DNA of 33,542 nt from Planctomycetia bacterium (lineage in GTDB: Bacteria; Planctomycetota; Planctomycetia; Gemmatales; Gemmataceae): assembly GCA_005808665.1 (NCBI GenBank), contig SYLG01000087.1:1-33542 (forward strand). Direction: 5' to 3'. Position 1 is the stretch's first letter. Every line of letters starts with the position of its first letter. Below, in pieces: positions 12,762 through 28,210 of this stretch. The notes under the pieces are model-generated. The model worked only from the letters and a program-made list of their open reading frames with translations, was not told the DNA's origin and ran no database searches. Made by a program: the position numbers and the translations under genes.

Positions 12762-14633
12762 TCAGGAAATCAAGCCGGTGGTTACCTGATCCGGTTTGCG
12801 ACTGGCAAGAACCTTGAGGGCGGTTTCATCCATCACCCGGGTAGCCAAGGCAAGGGTAACCTCGGAAAGGTGGTTGATCGCATCGTTAAGCCGGTCACCC
12901 GGTTCCGGCGATGTAATGTCATCGGTTTGTGATGCCATAAGGACAAGGACAACCGCGCTCTCAATTTGGGTTCGTTCCCCAGAAGGGATGTCCAAATCGG
13001 TTCGGTCCAGCGTGCGCCTGGTATGGCTAATCAGGATGGCACCCTTGGCTTTGAGTTCAATGAGCCTTCGGGCCCGGAAATCTTCATGGGCATGATCCAC
13101 GCTTTCCAGGACCATTCGCTCCACCTCCTCATCACTTAGGCCATGGGAAGGCTTAATGGAAATCCGTGCCTCCTGATTGCTCCGTTTTTCGCAGGCGGTA
13201 ACAGTAAGCAGGCCATCCGCATTCACCAAAAAGGTCACATCGACCTGAGCCATTTGGGAAGGCATGGGTGGGATGCCCGAAAGCTTGAATCGTCCCAGGT
13301 CACGGCAATCCTTGGCCAATTCCCTTTCCCCTTGAACAATGGTGATTTCCACGGCGGTCTGATTGTCGACGGCGGTTGTAAATCGTTCGGTTGCCCGGGC
13401 CGGAATGGTGGTGTTTCGATGAATGAGTTTGCTGACTGCACCGCCCAGGGTCACGATCCCAAGCGACAGGGGCAGGACATCCAATAAAAGAGTCTGGCGC
13501 CGATTTCCGGCGAGAATGTCCGCCTGGATGGCAGCACCCAAGGCGACTGCCTCGTCCGGGTTGAGTTCGGTGTGGGGCTTTCGACCGAAAAACTCGCCCA
13601 CAAGCCGGCGAACCAGCGGAATGCGGGTGGAGCCACCCACAAGTGCCACCTCGTCGATCTGTTGGGGCGTTTTTTGGGCATCGCGAAGGGCAACGCGGCA
13701 GCGATCAAGGCTTCTCTTGACCAGGGGAAGGATAAGCTCCTCAAACTCCGGTTGGGTAATCCTCTCCCTGTGGCCCAAGGGGGCAATGGGATATGCGGGG
13801 ATTTCAACCACCGTGTCAGGAGCCTCGGAAAGGGCGATTTTGGCTTGTTCGGCCAAGCCACGCAAACTCTGCAGGAAATGGGGATCGAAATCGTTTAATG
13901 CCTCGGTTTGGTGTGGGTTTTGGCCAAGCCTTGCCAAAAGGAACCTCATCAGGGCACGGTCAATATCATCTCCCCCCAAACGGGTATCCCCGCCTGTGCT
14001 TAATACCCTAAAGACGCCATCGTCCAGGTTCAGGATGGTACAATCGAAGGTTCCCCCGCCAAAGTCATAGACCGCAATGGTCCCCTTTCGGCGGCGATCA
14101 AGGCCATAGGCCAGGGCTGCTGCGGTCGGTTCGTTGATGATCCGAAGGACTTCAAGGCCCGCGATCTTGCCAGCATCCCGGGTGGCCTGCCGTTGGCTTT
14201 CGTCAAAATGGGCGGGTACGGTGATAACGGCACGGGTGGGATTCCCCGCCCGGTGTCTGATTTCTTTGAGGATAAGGGCGGAGAGTTCCTCAGGGGTCCT
14301 TTTTTTTCCCTGGATGTCCACACAGAGAACTTTGCGGCCTTCCCCTGCGTCGTGTTCTGTAATCCCCTGGGGAATGAATCCCAACTCGCCCCCAAGGTCA
14401 GAAAGAGTGCGGCCCATGAGGCGTTTGACAGAAAATAGGGTATTAAGGGGATCGCTTAAGGAGCGGGCTTTGGCTTCCTCACCAACGAGAGGAGGTCCCT
14501 TTTGGGGAAAGGAGATAACGCTTGGGACGAGAGGATTGCCCTCGGGCCCCCGCAGAACAACAGGCTTGCCGTCGATCATTTTGGCGACGAGACTATTGGT
14601 TGTGCCAAGGTCGATGCCGACGATTTCACTCAT
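12762..14633 (-). CDS. hscA: HscA, Hsp70-type chaperone for Fe-S cluster transfer
   Basis: The 623-residue Hsp70-family protein has the phosphate-1 motif GIDLGTTNS at the N terminus, the [13 protein letters not shown] segment, the phosphate-2 motif [10 protein letters not shown] and the adenosine motif [12 protein letters not shown]. Its substrate-binding domain starts near [11 protein letters not shown]. Length and the iscU-hscB neighbours identify it as HscA rather than DnaK, which is longer and has an acidic C-terminal tail. With HscB it uses ATP to drive cluster release from IscU. AAGGTGAT precedes ATG 14633. The gene starts 28 nt downstream of a tRNA-Val gene on the same strand, an unusual insertion in the operon. 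Confidence 0.93.
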
Positions 14634-16219: not shown

Positions 16220-17446
16220 TTAGTGGGCGGCCCAGGCAACCGTACTCAGATCGATCCCTTGTTTGTGCATCTCGTAAAGCGGGCTCATCTCGCGCAAATG
16301 ATTAACCGCGGTGATTACCTGCCGGATCACAAAGTCGATCTCGGTCTCGGTGGTAAACCGGCCCAGGCCAAAGCGGATGGAACTATGGGCCAACTCATCC
16401 CCCACCCCAATCGCCCGCAAGACATAGCTGGGTTCCAGGCTGGCACTGGTGCAGGCGGAGCCAGAGCTTACCGCCACATCACGGATGCCCATCATCATGG
16501 CCTCGCCTTCGACAAAGGCAAAGCTAAGGTTCAGGTTTCCCGGAAGGCGATCGGTGGGGTGGCCATTCACGCCGACATCACCCAACTCGGCGGTGATGCC
16601 ATCATGAAGCCTTTTGCGAAGGGAAAGCAGCCTTTGTGTTTCCGACTCGCGCAATTTGCCAGCCAGCTCACAAGCCGCACCTAACCCAACGATACTGGGG
16701 ACCGCCAAGGTCCCTGAACGCATACCACGCTCATGGCCTCCGCCATCCATCAAGGCATCCAGGCGGACACGGGGGTTTTTGCGGCGAACATAAAGGGCAC
16801 CCAAACCCTTGGGGCCGTACAATTTGTGGGCGGTGAGGCTCAAAAGGTCGATTCCCATGGCTTCCACATCCACGGGGACCTTACCCACAGCCTGGACGGC
16901 GTCGGTGTGAAACAGGACCCCCCGAGCCTTGCAGATCGCCCCGATGGCCGCCAAAGGCTGCAATGTGCCTATCTCGTTGTTCGCAGCCATCACACTGACA
17001 AGGATGGTTTTTTCTGTGATCGCCTGGGCTACCTGCTCCGGGGCTACTTGTCCATATTTGTCCACCGGTAGGTAGGTTACTTCAAAACCGTCCCGTTCGA
17101 GCCGTTTGCAAGGGTCAAGCACTGCCTTGTGCTCGATCACGGTGGTAATGATATGGTTGCCTTTTTTCCGATACATCGAGGCCACGCCTTTGATGGCGAG
17201 GTTGTTGCTTTCGGTGGCTCCGCTGGTGAAGATAATTTCCTTTCCTGAGGCCCCAATCAGCCTCCCTACCTGTTCACGGGCATTTTCTACTGCCTCTTCG
17301 GCCACCCACCCAAAAGAGTGGTTGCGGCTGGCGGCATTGCCATAGTTTTCGGTGAAGAAAGGAAGCATCGCTTCCACTACCCGGGGATCACATCGGGTGG
17401 TGGAGTTGTTGTCCATGAAGATCGGGAGTTTCAAACTTGCGCTCAT
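16220..17446 (-). CDS. iscS: IscS, cysteine desulfurase
   Basis: The 408-residue PLP enzyme (usual length about 404) begins [17 protein letters not shown], has [13 protein letters not shown], the PLP-contact segment [12 protein letters not shown], the Schiff-base lysine in [11 protein letters not shown], and the mobile catalytic-Cys loop [17 protein letters not shown] near residue 330. It removes sulfur from cysteine and passes it as persulfide to IscU; in many bacteria IscS also feeds tRNA thiolation. It lies 23 nt after iscR and 58 nt before iscU. The C terminus ([17 protein letters not shown]) resembles the IscU-binding tail of group I desulfurases. Confidence 0.95.
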
Positions 17447-17469
17447 AACGGAAAAACGATCCTTTGGGA

Positions 17470-17991
17470 TTAGGCAATTGCCATCGCCTGTTGATGGACA
17501 GTTGGGGTTTGGGACACAAAAGCAGTTTCAGGGTTGGGGTTATGGGCATTTGGAACAAATCCGATTTGGATGGCACCCACTTCGATGGGGCCATCATCGA
17601 AAAGTGTTTCCAGGGTGGTCCGTCCCAAAATGTCACTAATGCGCTGGTGAACCTTGCCGATGGCACCCTTTACGGGGCATATACCACTTAGGGAGCAGGG
17701 TTCGGTATGGTTGGTGGTACACTCGGTAAGGTGAAAGGGATCATTCAAGGCATCCATCAGCTGGGACATGGTGATGTCGCTTGCTGGCCTGCCCAGGACA
17801 TACCCTCCCCGAACACCCCGGTGGCTTTGGACCAAACCCGTGGCACATAGCCGCTTCAGAATATTGGCCACAAAAGGGCGACTTAAGGCAAACGATTCCG
17901 CTATTTCCCGGGCGGAAGCCCCGCTTCCCCTTCGGTGCAGGATGGACATAATGAGCAGGCTGTAATCCACCTTTCTGCTTAGGAATGTCAT
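17470..17991 (-). CDS. iscR: IscR-like Rrf2 transcription regulator
   Basis: The 173-residue protein starts at ATG 17991 with GAGG 8 nt upstream; the frame extends to 18054 without support. It has an Rrf2 winged-helix domain: [40 protein letters not shown] and the wing [14 protein letters not shown] three-cysteine cluster, C-x7-C-x5-C ([11 protein letters not shown] then SLSGICPV), should hold a [2Fe-2S] cluster; E. coli IscR has C-x5-C-x5-C, so the first spacing differs. IscR senses cluster supply and represses its own operon. Being the first gene of the isc operon here fits that role. Confidence 0.93.
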
Positions 17992-18019
17992 GGGAAACCT
18001 CGAGGGAAAGCCGGTTTTT

Positions 18020-18037
18020 TTTGGAAACGCTTCCAAA
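18020..18037. promoter_or_regulatory. Inverted repeat in the iscR leader, candidate operator
   Basis: TTTGGAA-ACGC-TTCCAAA is a perfect 7-bp inverted repeat between the proposed promoter and the iscR start. It could be a regulator-binding site or an RNA hairpin. It does not match the E. coli IscR type 1 box closely. Confidence 0.4.
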
Positions 18038-18077
18038 GTGGGCCGAAAGAGCACACAATCAGTACTCTTTCCCTTTT

Positions 18078-18642: not shown

Positions 18643-18847
18643 TCGAATCCGCCAAGGGAAGTGTCAACCCGACCCTTCCATGGCGGACAAATCGGTAGAT
18701 CGACCGGTTGGATCCAATGTGTTAGGGCCTTTGTGCCCGGACACTTGGTAACCGACCCGAAGTCAGATCCTCAAACTCCGGATGCCTGCCCGCATCGCCT
18801 CCCCTTTTTCCCAAACACATTGCCAATTCTTACACAGGAGATCTGTC

Positions 18848-19822
18848 ATGAAATCGAATTCCAGGAATCGTCACGCTTTCACCCTGATCGAGCTACTCGT
18901 AGTCATTGCCATCATTGCCGTACTCATTGGACTATTGCTGCCAGCCGTACAAAAGGTACGCGAAGCGGCCAACCGCATGAGCTGCCAAAACAACCTGAAG
19001 CAACTTGGTTTGGCACTTCATTCTTTTCACGATGCCAATGGTGCCTTTCCCCGTGGCCGAACGATTCCCAATGCGCAATCGTTTTCGGCCCAGTCCCGGT
19101 TGCTCCCTTTCCTGGAACAGGAAAATGCCTCCAAGTTGGTCAATTATGGGGTCAACTACAACGATCCTTCCAACTTGGCCGCATCAGGCATAGTGATCAA
19201 GTCCTTTATTTGCCCCTCCGATTCCACCTCGGCGGTACCTACAGGGATGGCTCCCTTGAGTTACCGGGTTAATGAGGGAACGACGGTTGCCATGTGGCAG
19301 GGGATTAGTGATGCCAACGGTGTGAACAAGAATTTGCCTCCCGACAATGGGCCTTTCTTTTGCAACAACCCCTACCGCTTTGCCGATATTCTGGACGGGA
19401 CCAGCAACACCGCCGGCTTTAGCGAACATCTGATCGGTGACTTTAGCCAATCGCAGGTAAGCCCAAGGTCGGATACCTTTCGTCCCGGAACCTATCCCGC
19501 CACAGCGGATGAGGCGGTTGCCCAATGTGCCGCCGCCAATATCTCTGACCTGGCCATCCAGGGGAATTCCAATGTGGGGGCCCCCTGGATCTACGGGTTC
19601 CACTCAACCTCGAGTTATTGGCACTCCGGGCTTCCCAACAGCCGTTCATGTATGTTTCCTCCCAGTCGCATCATGACCACAGCCGGCAGCAACCACACTG
19701 GTGGGGTCAATGTTTGCATGCTGGATGGGTCCGTCAAATTCTTTACCAGTGCGGTTAGCATTGCAACCTGGCGAGCCATTGGCACCCGAAATCTGGGTGA
19801 GATTCTTGGACCTGATTTCTAG
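18848..19822 (+). CDS. DUF1559 prepilin-like protein
   Basis: ATG 18848 follows AGGAGAT with 6-nt spacing; the frame extends to 18782 without support. The 324-residue protein has the prepilin-type N terminus ([20 protein letters not shown]), the [19 protein letters not shown] continuation, [14 protein letters not shown], and the C-terminal [12 protein letters not shown] motif. It is a paralogue of the gene at 2630: the first 60 residues are nearly identical in protein but differ at many third codon positions, so the conservation is functional and not from recent copying. It lies 48 nt upstream of the AhpD-like selenoprotein gene and may be cotranscribed with it. Confidence 0.93.
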
Positions 19823-19870
19823 GGAATCAGACTTTGAGCTACCTAACCCATCTTTTAAGGAGTCGACTGA

Positions 19871-21154
19871 ATGAGTCCGTTGCTGTTACTCGTCCTGCTT
19901 CAGAACCCGGCTCCTCCGGACGCTGCCCCCAAGCCTGTGGGGCAGACCAGGGTCCAGGAGAAGGAGCTTCTCGAGGCCTACAAGAAGGCCAAACCGCGCC
20001 TGCCTATGCCCCCTGTGGTGGAGGGCCAGGCATCCCGGGTCAACAATGGCCGGTTCCGGCAATACTACCTCGGGCCGGAGTTCCAAACCAGTGGCCTTGG
20101 CGGAAGGGAACCCGACCCGGAATTGACCCTGAACAACACCTTCAAGGTCAAGTTGTTCTGGATTGCCAGCCGGGCCAACAATTGCTTCTATTGACTGGGT
20201 CATCAGGAACACAAGCTTTCCGCCGCCGGGGTCTCCGACGATGGCATTGCCGCCCTTGATAGCGACTGGTCTGTATTTAGCCCGGCAGAACAGGCCGCTT
20301 TCGCCTATGCCCAAAAGCTCACCCATGAACCCTCCTCGATCAATCCTGCAACCATCAAATCCTTGAGGGAGTTTTATTCACCCAATCAGATTCTGGAGAT
20401 GACCATTGCCATTGGTGGCTACAACTCCATGAACCGGTGGACGGATGCCCTGAACATTCCAGGTGAGGAGAATGGAAACTTTTTCAAGAAGGAAGGGGGC
20501 GAAGATCTTTCACGATTTGACACTCCGACCTCTGCGAAATATGCAACTGCAAAGTCGCTAATCATTCCCAAAGCTCCGGCTGGTATTCCTGCCGAGGGGC
20601 CTGGGCGCCTGAGTCTTGCTGACCTTAACAGGAAAGTGGTTGAGGCATCCAAACGCGCCCCGACTTTGCCATTGGCCGAGGCCGCCCCTGCCACCTGGAA
20701 CACTTCCAACAAAGCTTGGGTGAGGCTCCTGGCAACCTTTACCAAGTCGGGCAAAACACGCCATGATGGGGTGATCAATTGCCAAACAAAGGGATCTCTC
20801 TCGCCCAAACTTCGTGGGGCTATCGCCTGGGTGGCGGCTCGGGAGGATGGGGCCCTTTATGCGTTTGACCTTGCCACCAAACAACTCAAGGATCTGGGGC
20901 TCTCGGATTCTGAAATCATGGGGTTGGATGAGGTTGGGTTGGCACTCGAACCGGGCGATCGGACGGCCCTCCCCCTGGTTAGAAAACTAACCGTCGCTCC
21001 AGCAACGGTCGCTGATGCGGATGTGGTTATCCTTCGTAAGGCCTTGGGAGGGTCTTTTACCGACAAACAGGTGGCAGAGATTGTCCACCAGGTTTGTAAC
21101 GCTTCCTTTTTTCACCGGGTAACCGAGGCGGCAAACCTGCCCGTTGGAAACTAG
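19871..21154 (+). CDS. AhpD/CMD-like selenoprotein with CxxU active site (TGA at 20192-20194 read as Sec)
   Basis: The frame runs from ATG 19871 (AGGAGT 8 nt upstream) to TAG at 21154, 427 residues, with one in-frame TGA at codon 108. Sequence on both sides is continuous with an AhpD/carboxymuconolactone decarboxylase fold: FWIASRANNCFY-TGA-LGHQEHKLSAAGVSDD. Family members have C-x-x-C-x-x-x-H here, so TGA replaces the second (peroxidatic) Cys, giving C105-F-Y-U108. After the TGA the domain goes on (FSPAEQAAFAYAQKLT, EFYSPNQILEMTIAIGGYNSMNR). A second, degenerate CMD repeat covers about residues 255-425; its equivalent site reads A328-L-Y-A331. An N-terminal hydrophobic segment (MSPLLLLVLLQ) suggests export. 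AhpD-like selenoproteins are a known group. A simple nonsense mutation is the alternative, but the intact downstream frame and hairpin argue against it. Confidence 0.85.
20220..20244 (+). promoter_or_regulatory. Candidate bacterial SECIS element, AhpD-like gene
   Basis: Downstream of the TGA the sequence can form a hairpin: CCG..CG..CGG on the 5' side and CCG..CG..TGG on the 3' side, with two C-A mismatches and one G-U pair. The apical loop is GGUCU (20230-20234), the loop sequence found in the E. coli fdhF SECIS. It starts 35 nt after the TGA, inside the range usual for bacterial SECIS elements (about 16-37 nt). Confidence 0.65.
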
Positions 21155-23807: not shown

Positions 23808-25187
23808 TTACGGTCTTGAGGAAGGTGTTATTTTCGCAGCTGGGTGTCGGGCCCTGGCCCGGTTTTCCTGTAAATCGGTGACAGGAATGGCAGTTTCCCA
23901 AAATGCCCCTGCCTCAAAACCTGCAGTCAAGTGACCACGAAAGTTGCGGGCGGTGGCTTGAAACCCCGCCGCACCAAGGGCCAGCGTGTCTGCCAGTTTT
24001 CCACCTTTGTCTCCTGGATCCAAACGGGCCAATATCCGCCCGGATAGGCCAAAGGGATCTGCTTGAACCACGGCCATGGCCGGGACCTTTCCGCCGTCAA
24101 GATGCAAAAGTTTACCCATTTCAGAAGCGTTGCCCTGACAAAGAACAAAACGACCTTGCCAGGGAGAATCAAAAAACAGGTCGGTCATGGCGGCCTCAAA
24201 CCCTGGGCCTGCGGCAGGTCCAAGAACAACCAAGGGAAGATTATCACACGCTGCCACATTGATCGCCAACCTCAGGTTGGCAAGGGCAGGTGATGTTTTC
24301 AATCGCCCGGGGGTTTCCTTTGTGGTTTGTTTTGCGGAAATCAGACGCATGGCTTCGGCCATTCGAACCGAGCTGCCAAACACCCGTTCTGGCCCCCGGG
24401 AAATTGGGGAAAGGGGAGTTTTTCCATCGCTTTTGAGCAGCGCAAAGGTGGAGTTTTCCATTTGTCCACTACGGCCTTGGTAGAGGCCAAGGAGGTAGTC
24501 CCGTTCCTTGGCACTTTCATAGGTGGTGGGGCGAATGGCGACAAATGGGCGTGATGCCAGGATCACCTCTACCGTGGACAGGAAACTCCTGTCTGCTTCC
24601 TGTTTTCCCGGTCACCAAACCCCAGGTACGCCTCCACAGCTGGGAGCCGCTGACATGAGCAGGATGGGTTTCCCGGTCTGTTTGGCCTCGGCGAGTCCTG
24701 CCTCCAGGTCGGTGTACCAAGCGATGGCATCCGGGATATTGACTCCCTTGGCAGCACCCTGTTTAGGAGATCCTTTTTCAGATGGATCGGGTTTTTCAAA
24801 GGGTGGCCTTGTTCCAGGTCCCTCTTTTCCATCTTCCGGACCACCCTTGCCGTCGGGGGGGCCTTTCTTGCCAAAACCCTTTTTCCCCTCTTTTTTGCCT
24901 TCATAGCCCTCTTTGCCCAAGCCAAGCCTCATTCTCCTCGGCATCATCTCCTCGCGGCTCAACACACCATCTTTGTTTTTGTCGAGTTTTTTCAACGATT
25001 CAGTGGCTTGTTTGAGTTCTTCCGGGGAAATTTGGCCATCTTTGTCCAAATCAAGGGCTTCGACCAATGGGTTGATGGGAAAACCGCCAGGTCCCATCGG
25101 GGGCCCACCAAAGGGTGGCTGGGCCAGGATCCAACTCCCTCCGGCCATCAAAAGGGAAATCAAGGTCCATTTGGTACTACGATTCAT
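23808..25187 (-). CDS. Secreted EF-hand thioredoxin-like selenoprotein (TGA at 24614-24612 read as Sec)
   Basis: The frame runs from ATG 25187 to 23808 with a single in-frame TGA at codon 192 (459 residues). A signal peptide (WTLISLLMAGGSWILA) is followed by two EF-hands, ALDLDKDGQISPEEL and KLDKNKDGVLSREEM, then a Lys/Gly/Pro-rich linker. A thioredoxin-like domain begins near residue 155: AEAKQTGKPILLMSAAPSCGG, VPGVW-TGA-PGKQEADRSFL, VILASRPFVAIRPTTYES. The W-U-P-G-K segment aligns with W-C-G-P-C/K of thioredoxins, placing Sec at the nucleophile position with no resolving Cys in CxxC; C184 lies eight residues upstream. A second thioredoxin-like region may follow (DSPWQGRFVLCQGNASEMGKLL). It is the first gene of a three-gene operon with the thioredoxin-PDZ selenoprotein and the EF-hand/collagen-like protein. 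Confidence 0.82.
24577..24593 (-). promoter_or_regulatory. Candidate bacterial SECIS element, EF-hand selenoprotein gene
   Basis: GACAGGA (24593-24587) and TCCTGTC (24583-24577) form a perfect 7-bp stem capped by GUU (24586-24584). The loop starts 25 nt after the TGA and its first base is G. This is the cleanest of the three hairpins and lies within coding sequence, as bacterial SECIS elements must. Confidence 0.7.
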
Positions 25188-25355: not shown

Positions 25356-25447
25356 CCAGAATGCCCGCCTCTCAAGAGGATTAGGATCGGATTCGGCTTG
25401 TTTTTCGATTGGAGTGTTTTCCTCCAGTCAAACCTAAGGAGATCGTT

Positions 25448-28210
25448 ATGGCCAGGCTCAATCGTTTCCCGGTAAAACCGACCGTCCTTCCCTATTTGGA
25501 ATCCCTGGAGAGCAGGGCTCTTCCCGCCGTCAACTTTATTGGGGTTAGTAGCGGTATCCTTTCCATTCGAACGGATGATTTTCCCACGGTTGTAAAAGTG
25601 GAATTCACCCTGACCGGCGTTGCCCCGGTTCAAGTGGAGCGTATCAAGGTAACCGAAGGGAGTTCCCGGGTTATAGGCAATTACATATTTCAGGAGGTGA
25701 CCAGGGTTGAATTTACTGGGGGAAGGGGGGATGACACATTTAACGCAAGGGGTATCCCCTTTCATGTCCAGGCCCTTGGTAATGATGGCCATGACCAATT
25801 ACGAGGCGGATCGGGGACGAACTCGCTGGATGGTGGGAACGGCAACGATTCCATTTGGTATACCGGCCGCGGTTCTGTTTATGGGGGAATGGGCAACGAT
25901 TCCATTACCACCGGTAATGGAATCGACTACATTGATGCGGGGGAGGGAAATGACGGAATCAGTGCCCAAGGTGGTAACGATGAGGTAGATGCTGGGTTGG
26001 GGGATGATCGTATTGATGGGGGCGAAGGGAACGATATCATCCGGGGTGGCGGTGGGGTCGACCAAATCAATGGCGAGGGGGGAAACGACCAGTTGGAGGG
26101 CAACGATGACAACGATGACCTGTTTGGTGGAGCAGGAAACGACACCCTGAACGGGAATGGGGGTAACGACAACCTGCGGGGCAATGATGGGGATGATATC
26201 CTGAATGGCGGCGAAGGCAACGATTACCTGGCCGGATGGATTGGCCATGATTTTCTTAACGGTGGCAATGGCAACGACACCGCCTATGGAGGTGAAGGAA
26301 ACGATACCATCAACGGGTGGGCAGGAGAGGATGCCCTAAATGGGGAATCGGGTAATGACATCCTCAATGGTGGGGATGACAATGATGCCATCCATGGTGA
26401 GGATGGCAACGATACCATCAATGGGGGTGGGGGTAACGATCGGCTTGTTGGACTGGCCGGACAAGACACGATCAACGGGGATGGAGGCAACGATACCATC
26501 ACCGGAGGGCTTGGTGCGGACACGCTCCATGGAGGTGATGGCAACGATACGATCAATGGCAACGAAGATGCCGACCTCATCACCGGCGGAGCGGGACAAG
26601 ACAGGCTTCTGGGCAATGCAGGGAACGATACCATCTCGGGCAATGCGGATGCTGATACCATCGACGGGGGATCCGGCTTGGACCGGCTGGATGGAAACCT
26701 TGGAGGCGATACGATCGATGGCGGAACCGAGGCCGACACGATTTACGGGGGCCCTGATGGGGACACGGTTCGGGGCGGCGGGGGCATAGACACTATCTTT
26801 GGTGGGGATGGTGGGGATTCCCTTTTGGGTGGTGCAGGCAATGATGTCATTTACGGAGGTAACGGCCGCGATTCCCTCCTCGGGGAGGAAGGCAACGACA
26901 CCCTCTCTGGGGAGGCAGACGATGACTTCATCAATGGGGGAATCGGGGCGGACATCCTTACCGGGGGATTAGGAAAGGACCGGCTAGAAGGCAGTAACGA
27001 CAACGACATCATCGACGGTGGTGGGGATGCAGATTTTATTCTGGGTGGGTTGGGCGATGATACCCTTCGGGGGGGAGATGGGAACGATACGATCAACGGC
27101 AATGCCGGCCTGGACCAATTGTTTGGGGGCAATGGCGATGATATTTTGATCGCTCTCGATGACCTTTACACCGATATTTTACAAGGGGATGGTGGGAGGG
27201 ATGCCTTTTGGTCGGACGCAACAGGAGTCATCCGGGGTGGGGTTCGCCAAGGCGATGTAAGGCGGGATCTGGGTGCGGTGGATGTGGACAACTTTGTCAG
27301 AGCATTTACTTTTACGGGCATGGACCGAACCCTGGATGGAGAAGCTATAGGAGACCCCACCGTTACCGGGTTGGGTTATCAGCGTTTTGGCGACCATCCT
27401 CTTTACCCCGCAAACGGTCCAACCGGAGCGGACATCGACCAGGGTGCGGTACCGGATTGCATGATCCTTGCCGCCTTTTCTGCCTTGGCTCACAACACCA
27501 CCTCGGGCTTGGCTTGGCCGATTCGTCGGGCCATGGTCGATTTCGGGGATGGAACGGTAGGATTCGCTTTGAATTTTGGGGGAGGAGTCCCTGAGTTTCG
27601 GTTAAGGATGGATGCCGATTTGCCGGTCGATGCCTTGGGCAACCTCGTTTTCGCAAGGCTTGGCAAGGAGGGCAGTCTCTGGGTGCCCTTGGCGGAAAAA
27701 GCAATTGTGTATCTCAATAACTGGGCCAGTGCTGCGGGCTACCTCGGTGTACCTGCCAATATACCTCTCAATTATGCCAATCTGGATTTCGCTCGAAGGT
27801 CTCCACGCCAAATATTCACCTATTTTGGCTCAGCAGATACAGGTAGGTTTAACTGTTCCAGTTTTGCCAGTGCCCAGGCAATGGCCGATGACCTATTCAC
27901 CCGGTGGAATGGCTACCAGAATGTCGTCTTTGGTGTGGGGGACAACAACTTCGCCCTGGGAATTCCGGTAAATCACGCTTACACACTATGGGCGGTAAAT
28001 CGCAACCCTGCCGGCCAAGTCACCTCCATTGTCCTTCGCAATCCTTGGGGGGTCGATGGCGGCCGGGACCAACAGGGTTATCTGGCGTATGCCGATGCCA
28101 ATCCGAATGATGCGTTAATCACCCTCACCCCGGACCAACTCTATGCAACCACTCCGGGTTTTGATGAGGAAGAGGGCACCTTTTACTGGTGGGGATCCCG
28201 AATCGTCTGA
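25448..28210 (+). CDS. Surface protein: RTX-type calcium repeats plus calpain-like cysteine protease
   Basis: ATG 25448 follows AAGGAGATC; the frame extends to a TTG at 25409 without support. The 920-residue protein starts with a basic segment and the planctomycete tag LPYLESLESRALPAVNF. About residues 105-575 are dozens of glycine/aspartate nonapeptide-type repeats (GGNGNDTI, GGEGNDYLAG) that fold as a calcium-bound parallel beta-roll. The C-terminal 260 residues are a calpain (peptidase C2) domain: GAVPDCMILAAFSALA with Cys671, PVNHAYTLWAV with His843, and LRNPWG with Asn865, so the catalytic triad is complete. Calcium probably stabilises the repeat region outside the cell. It is divergent from the selenoprotein operon. 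Confidence 0.92.
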   Translation: MARLNRFPVKPTVLPYLESLESRALPAVNFIGVSSGILSIRTDDFPTVVKVEFTLTGVAPVQVERIKVTEGSSRVIGNYIFQEVTRVEFTGGRGDDTFNARGIPFHVQALGNDGHDQLRGGSGTNSLDGGNGNDSIWYTGRGSVYGGMGNDSITTGNGIDYIDAGEGNDGISAQGGNDEVDAGLGDDRIDGGEGNDIIRGGGGVDQINGEGGNDQLEGNDDNDDLFGGAGNDTLNGNGGNDNLRGNDGDDILNGGEGNDYLAGWIGHDFLNGGNGNDTAYGGEGNDTINGWAGEDALNGESGNDILNGGDDNDAIHGEDGNDTINGGGGNDRLVGLAGQDTINGDGGNDTITGGLGADTLHGGDGNDTINGNEDADLITGGAGQDRLLGNAGNDTISGNADADTIDGGSGLDRLDGNLGGDTIDGGTEADTIYGGPDGDTVRGGGGIDTIFGGDGGDSLLGGAGNDVIYGGNGRDSLLGEEGNDTLSGEADDDFINGGIGADILTGGLGKDRLEGSNDNDIIDGGGDADFILGGLGDDTLRGGDGNDTINGNAGLDQLFGGNGDDILIALDDLYTDILQGDGGRDAFWSDATGVIRGGVRQGDVRRDLGAVDVDNFVRAFTFTGMDRTLDGEAIGDPTVTGLGYQRFGDHPLYPANGPTGADIDQGAVPDCMILAAFSALAHNTTSGLAWPIRRAMVDFGDGTVGFALNFGGGVPEFRLRMDADLPVDALGNLVFARLGKEGSLWVPLAEKAIVYLNNWASAAGYLGVPANIPLNYANLDFARRSPRQIFTYFGSADTGRFNCSSFASAQAMADDLFTRWNGYQNVVFGVGDNNFALGIPVNHAYTLWAVNRNPAGQVTSIVLRNPWGVDGGRDQQGYLAYADANPNDALITLTPDQLYATTPGFDEEEGTFYWWGSRIV

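Follow-up and report, generated by a model that had tools for sequence, protein, structure and literature searches.

The locus described here raises the question of whether a TGA codon within an otherwise open planctomycete reading frame is read as selenocysteine (Sec), and what kind of protein would result. The frame is located in a window of 33,542 nucleotides, the whole stretch of DNA that was analysed, which forms one contig in an assembly of 4.48 Mb (Table 1). As stated in a preliminary description of this DNA, the frame contains one in-frame TGA at codon 108, with 107 residues ahead and 319 beyond, and it closes at a TAG. With the TGA translated as Sec, the surrounding motif would read C105-F-Y-U108-L-G-H111-Q112-E113. 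In a mechanical list of open reading frames, the locus appears as an ORF of 107 residues and a second one starting with TTG at position 20363, and automatic annotation would very likely split the gene in two.

The nature of the codon is illustrated in its relatives, which are found in 58 of 99 related genomes. A first alignment of 32 homologous stretches, from which those covering fewer than 250 query residues had been left out beforehand, contains 10 cases of TGA at this position and 22 of TGC or TGT. In a scan of the genome collection, the query started after the Sec position, which renders copies with TGA and with Cys equally findable. Relatives are encoded in 59 of 107 candidate stretches, corresponding to 58 loci, 56 of which are titled with a planctomycete taxon and the other two only as bacterium. 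Removal of duplicates reduced 120 profile hits to 96, 12 of which match other parts of the protein and have no letters at column 108, leaving 84 non-redundant stretches. Among these, the codon is TGA in 14 and Cys in 70 (57 TGC, 13 TGT), and no other codon is found in this column. The subset of 76 copies scoring at least 300 bits contains 11 distinct full-length copies with TGA and 65 with Cys; in their tree, the label changes at least five times, three of these changes being forced by well-supported branches, and 10 of the 11 TGA copies reside within a single supported branch of 19 rows, beside nine Cys copies. A relative from the same genus carries TGA at the same codon and does not end there, its homology extending past the codon with protein identities of 76.6% ahead and 71.9% beyond. 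In this pair, the coding part beyond the TGA is under purifying selection (dN 0.215, dS 1.47). A scan of viral sequences contained no relatives of the protein, and plasmid records gave four matches only, covering 24–27% of its length and all annotated as ordinary CMD proteins.

The genes selA, selB, selC and selD, whose presence the preliminary description had proposed as a check, are all encoded in the same assembly. The tRNA-Sec gene scores 70.4 bits, which is over cut-off, and is also called as SeC with the anticodon tca by ARAGORN, and SelB (335.3 bits), SelA (532.9 bits) and SelD (353.7 bits) each exceed their cut-offs. Eight of the nine genomes harbouring TGA copies contain SelA over cut-off (completeness of the remaining one: 59%), as do 14 of the 21 genomes in which all copies carry Cys. 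This association points in the right direction, although Cys-only genomes often retain SelA, presumably for other selenoproteins. Selenoproteins of the SelD type carry their Sec near the N-terminus, and the SelD of this genome, with an in-frame TGA in that region, is probably a selenoprotein as well.

A third line of evidence concerns the RNA downstream of the codon. As excerpted from PMC13188914, bacterial SECIS elements (bSECIS) are confined to apical loops of 3–9 nt with a G in the first two places, stems of 4–16 bp, a distance of 16–37 nt from the UGA and a minimum free energy (MFE) of –7.5 kcal/mol or lower, and the hairpin in the window falls narrowly within these limits, with its GGUCU loop at 35 nt and five inner pairs with one mismatch. 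The loop had been correctly recognised in the preliminary description, whereas the 35 nt described as the start of the hairpin correspond to the distance between TGA and loop, the stem beginning about 20 nt after the codon. The MFE amounts to –8.8 to –9.8 kcal/mol for stretches of 36–42 nt, while some shorter stretches fold in another register or more weakly. Since 12% of 60 synonymous recodings fold equally well, the hairpin by itself is moderately better than such recodings, and its support comes from the relatives. There, GGTC in the right distance range is present in all 14 TGA copies, at 26 nt after the codon in 12 and at 35 nt in two, compared to 13 of 70 Cys copies. When the loop was constrained and synonymous recodings served as controls, a GGT-loop hairpin of –7.4 kcal/mol or lower was obtained for 14/14 TGA copies and 4/70 Cys copies. 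The 14-mer CTCGCGGTCGCGGG is contained in 11 of the 14 and none of the 70, respectively, and recurs in 18 of 21 further TGA stretches, nearly all of them from paralogues with about 30–36% protein identity. Pairing in an eight-pair stem amounts to 91.7% across 12 TGA copies, with eight covarying cells, in which both sides have changed. None of 500 shuffles gives as much covariation, and the best slid control is 45.8% paired. In contrast, the MFE of the first 66 nt, with z-scores around zero in TGA and Cys copies alike, does not discriminate as a test for SECIS elements.

The window and its genus mate constitute the two copies where the GGTCT loop follows at 35 nt, 9 nt farther downstream than in most relatives. 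Within the 18 codons after the TGA, 15 of the 17 with a synonymous choice are identical between both, compared to 49 of 100 outside this segment (Fisher p = 0.003). In the protein, the hairpin spells L-A-V-A-G, and judged from the sequences the RNA would thus constrain the polypeptide, so that the protein appears to pay for the RNA. Two Cys copies from a branch adjoining the TGA copies, L018 and L061, still read LAVAG at this place and L061 also keeps GCGGTCGC, as if the SECIS element were decaying following a change from Sec to Cys. Such changes, with their retained trace of the hairpin-coded residues, would offer a small natural experiment on the constraint that an mRNA signal exerts on a protein.

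These observations bear on two readings of the codon that do not involve Sec. In one of them, the TGA is a genuine stop, reflecting a sequencing error, a pseudogene or two separate genes, as the two ORFs of the mechanical list would have it. This is very improbable in view of the same-codon TGA in 11 distinct full-length copies with Cys in all others, the homology immediately past the codon, the selection after it, the single confident fold spanning it and the presence of the Sec machinery; a sequencing error in particular is not credible because of this recurrence. The other, in which a changed code would assign TGA to Cys or Trp, would accord with the Cys found in 70 of 84 copies. It is even more remote, as the TGA-associated hairpin is conserved, tRNA-Sec, SelA and SelB are encoded, and TGA also serves as ordinary stop of several long ORFs in the window, including the one for Hsp70 at 12762. 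None of the explanations without Sec, be it plain stop, sequencing error, pseudogene or code change, was therefore retained. Instead, owing to the Sec machinery, the column restricted to TGA and Cys, the GGUC-loop hairpin and the covariation in its stem, the coding sequence almost certainly specifies a C-x-x-U selenoprotein, with Sec as the by far most probable residue at position 108. The corresponding proposal of the preliminary description is supported, and none of the results that it had named as refuting occurred.

Table 1. Coordinates of features in the window and of two related fusion genes (the latter in their own loci).
Feature	Position	Strand	Remarks
DUF1559 prepilin-like gene, upstream neighbour	18782–19822	+	Often adjoins the family in other planctomycetes
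Shine-Dalgarno-like AAGGAG ahead of ATG	19857–19862	+	From sequence
Coding sequence of predicted selenoprotein, two-lobed CMD/AhpD	19871–21154	+	427 residues if TGA is Sec; stop TAG; from sequence, homologues and model
N-terminal CMD/AhpD lobe	20006–20485	+	About residues 46–205; holds C105-x-Y107-U108-x-x-H111-Q112-E113
Putative Sec codon 108, TGA	20192–20194	+	From frame reading and homologue column
Predicted bSECIS hairpin	20213–20254	+	–9.8 kcal/mol; apical loop GGTCT at 20230–20234, 35 nt after TGA
C-terminal CMD/AhpD lobe	20597–21151	+	About residues 243–427; 25% identical to N-terminal lobe; no active-site Cys
Second selenoprotein candidate	23808–25187	–	One TGA at 24612–24614 in V-W-U-P-G-K; EF-hands, then thioredoxin-like stretch
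EF-hand deiodinase-family domain fused to putative two-lobed CMD selenoprotein	L109:1434–4046	+	In-frame TGA in each redox motif
EF-hand deiodinase-family domain fused to putative two-lobed CMD selenoprotein	L115:276–2843	–	In-frame TGA in each redox motif

The continuity of the protein across the TGA, which had been claimed before, is reflected in the match of the Pfam CMD profile PF02627 to residues 99–148 (31.8 bits against a gathering score of 23) and in the homologues, which invariably carry TGA or Cys where the codon is covered. The same profile matches 58 of 58 family members at E ≤ 0.1, the comparison to the gathering score applying to the first member only. The C-terminal half alone, with 20.7 bits, remains just under the gathering score and lacks Cys at the positions of C105 and U108. 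No NCBIfam model is over cut-off, the best, TIGR01926, scoring 58.3 bits compared to a required 81.8, and between 27.1 and 80.5 bits for seven members of the family and its paralogues. A structure model calculated from 58 sequences (pLDDT 91.7, pTM 0.92) shows its best fold match to human Sestrin2 (5dj4), which covers both lobes in order (Z 25.9, rmsd 3.0 over 288 residues; Foldseek E 2.2e-5) and is followed by single AhpD-like chains (2oyo and 6k40, Z 17.6). The earlier label of an AhpD/CMD-like protein is thus incomplete, as the protein would be a tandem of two AhpD lobes with sestrin-like overall fold rather than a simple AhpD. Similarly, the TGA is indeed located at the column of the family's second Cys, whereas the motif is C-x-x-U-x-x-H-Q instead of the described C-x-x-C-x-x-x-H. 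In HMMER alignments with solved AhpD-like chains, Q112 occupies the canonical His column (four residues after the second Cys), H111 being located one residue earlier, and V93 the column of the relay Glu (12 residues before the first Cys).

The relationship to sestrins is not significant on the sequence level, with E-values of 0.31–0.45 for sestrins in the PDB and matches of the PA26 profile in two of 58 members at a best E of 0.026. The protein shares with sestrins (PF04636; Sestrin2 5dj4) the two AhpD lobes per chain, a redox Cys and C-x-Y in the N-terminal lobe and a C-terminal lobe devoid of redox residues. However, as described in excerpts of PMC4674687, Sestrin2 has kept the first Cys only and carries Leu128 in the second place, where the protein of the window would contain Sec. 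Sestrins are further defined by a DDYDY hinge, an acidic motif in the C-terminal lobe, according to the passages of PMC11429811 used here. No such motif is found in the 427 residues, and helices 312–326 and 329–341 are kept in the model. Based on this model, the protein appears to be built like a sestrin, yet its identity as such is not established, and fused AhpD dimers may arrive at similar shapes by convergence. According to the model, the C-terminal lobe of the protein would have lost its redox pair and would complete a pseudo-dimer resembling that of sestrins. The same passages of PMC11429811 propose fused bacterial AhpD proteins, including YciW and those of Corynebacterium and Comamonas, as sestrin analogues. 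These equally combine two AhpD lobes, one of which may be Cys-free, but in the Corynebacterium and Comamonas proteins the active lobe is C-terminal, whereas it is N-terminal here, as in sestrins, and predicted to hold Sec. The window would thus encode a bacterial protein combining the lobe order of sestrins with a complete Sec/Cys redox pair.

CxxU selenoproteins of AhpD- and CMD-like type have already been catalogued, as evident from excerpts of PMC13188914, PMC9312934, PMC1794560 and PMC2398784, and planctomycete selenoproteins were reported earlier for two genomes (PMC4807772, in part). As in the AhpD-like representatives (COG2128/TIGR01926, PF02627, NF041238; PMC13188914 and PMC2398784, as excerpted), Sec would replace the second Cys of CxxC in a CFYU-type motif. 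In contrast to these, the protein of the window consists of two fused lobes, scores below every NCBIfam cut-off, has its His at U+3 and, in the collection scan, belongs to a family found almost only in Planctomycetota. With its two lobes, it would thus extend the range of architectures among AhpD-like proteins that contain Sec. The excerpts of the selenoprotein literature examined describe neither a two-lobed planctomycete family nor a fusion to a deiodinase, and the family is likewise absent from the titles and abstract openings of the literature matches listed, with a prior listing in table S9 of PMC4807772 being possible. Literature searches combining sestrin with Planctomycetes, and Bmp8 with debrominase, gave no match.

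A further feature of the wider family is its linkage to deiodinase-like proteins. Motifs of the deiodinase family are found in the fetched flanks, which differ in length, of eight of 58 loci, the one that was checked scoring 511.6 bits. In six paralogue stretches, such a motif shares one open frame with an active CMD motif, and in four of them both motifs contain TGA. Besides the two fusions listed in Table 1, these comprise L108 and L114, likewise with TGA in each redox motif, as well as L111 and L060; two of the fusion stretches match NF038285, the deiodinase family protein, at 456.7 and 435.8 bits. The NF038285 domain, which occurs close to members of the wider family or in fusion with them, is distinct and not part of the protein of the window, and the deiodinase gene of its own genome resides on a different contig and is devoid of TGA. 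In the paralogues whose sequence was read, the active CMD lobe is C-terminal. These arrangements connect two-lobed AhpD-like proteins to deiodinase-like selenoproteins.

The described features suggest how the protein might be produced and act. SelB would deliver Sec-tRNA to the UGA at codon 108 by means of the hairpin just downstream, and insertion of Sec would complete the C105-F-Y-U108 redox pair in the N-terminal lobe. The protein may be exported, as suggested by the N-termini of many homologues, which look like signal peptides, its own signal sequence being short and without a basic start. In AhpD, the two Cys have separate roles as attacking and resolving residues. By analogy, U108 would be the fast attacking nucleophile and C105 would resolve the selenenylsulfide, in the reduction of organic hydroperoxides or oxidised protein thiols, with electrons possibly exchanged with a partner such as the deiodinase- or peroxiredoxin-like proteins that are encoded next to relatives or fused with them. 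The protein is thus likely to function outside the cytoplasm, as a selenol/thiol peroxidase or redox partner, and a Sec-based mechanism of this kind is favoured with some reservation: since V93 and Q112 are found where AhpD-like enzymes carry the relay Glu and His, the relay must differ and peroxidase chemistry is not assured.

The main rival is a Sec protein catalysing reductive dehalogenation or other thiol chemistry in place of peroxide reduction. The solved relatives of the N-terminal lobe (E 1.2e-11) and of the fold (Z 16.7) include Bmp8, taken from PDB titles to be a debrominase, and the deiodinase motifs near eight loci and in frame with CMD motifs in six paralogue stretches point in the same direction. 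We nevertheless consider this unlikely, as the solved relatives also include chains annotated as alkyl hydroperoxide reductases and as the bacterial 'deiodinase family' bears its name by similarity. The top fold match to Sestrin2, with both lobes in order, could alternatively indicate a sestrin-like sensor or scaffold with a regulatory redox site, which appears less probable still given the missing DDYDY hinge motif, the helix-turn-helix kept in the C-terminal lobe, and the retained Sec, which argues for catalysis. Returning to the favoured role in redox catalysis, it is conceivable, although doubtful, that planctomycetes possess a selenium-dependent extracytoplasmic redox and perhaps dehalogenating system, where sestrin-shaped two-lobed CMD selenoproteins work with EF-hand deiodinase-like enzymes in a pairing resembling AhpD and AhpC, and where the protein of the window is the free-standing partner. 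If so, the pairing would occur either between neighbours or within fusions bearing two Sec, with the protein of the window being active in its N-terminal lobe like sestrins.

The window contains another candidate for Sec insertion on the opposite strand. Seven matches past its TGA site were found in six of 59 genomes, its own included, each with exactly one internal TGA and none in a Cys form. In six aligned copies, the TGA column is shared and followed by a strong hairpin around GACAGGAGTTTCCTGTC or a close variant. The number of paired positions in this hairpin is uninformative, as five of seven pairs are invariant and shuffles score as well. No Pfam or NCBIfam model exceeds its cut-off in the region, with Thioredoxin_7 and the nearest NCBIfam selenoprotein models remaining below. 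Based on its position and conservation, this frame probably encodes a second selenoprotein. Both candidates, which are located within 5.4 kb, end at their TGA in the mechanical ORF list, illustrating how annotation would split such genes.

With respect to other neighbours, the cluster containing the DUF1559 gene of the window is represented near 41 of 62 examined copies, including 9 of the 11 with TGA, as counted by cluster with members not individually scanned and with several copies sharing a locus. Upstream of the DUF1559 gene, a class V aminotransferase gene (16220–18054, minus strand) is located next to a gene for an Rrf2-type regulator. At 25409–28210 on the plus strand, the window encodes a protein of 933 residues with 20 stretches of RTX calcium-binding repeats and a match to calpain-like proteases, which adjoins genes for EF-hand and PDZ proteins.
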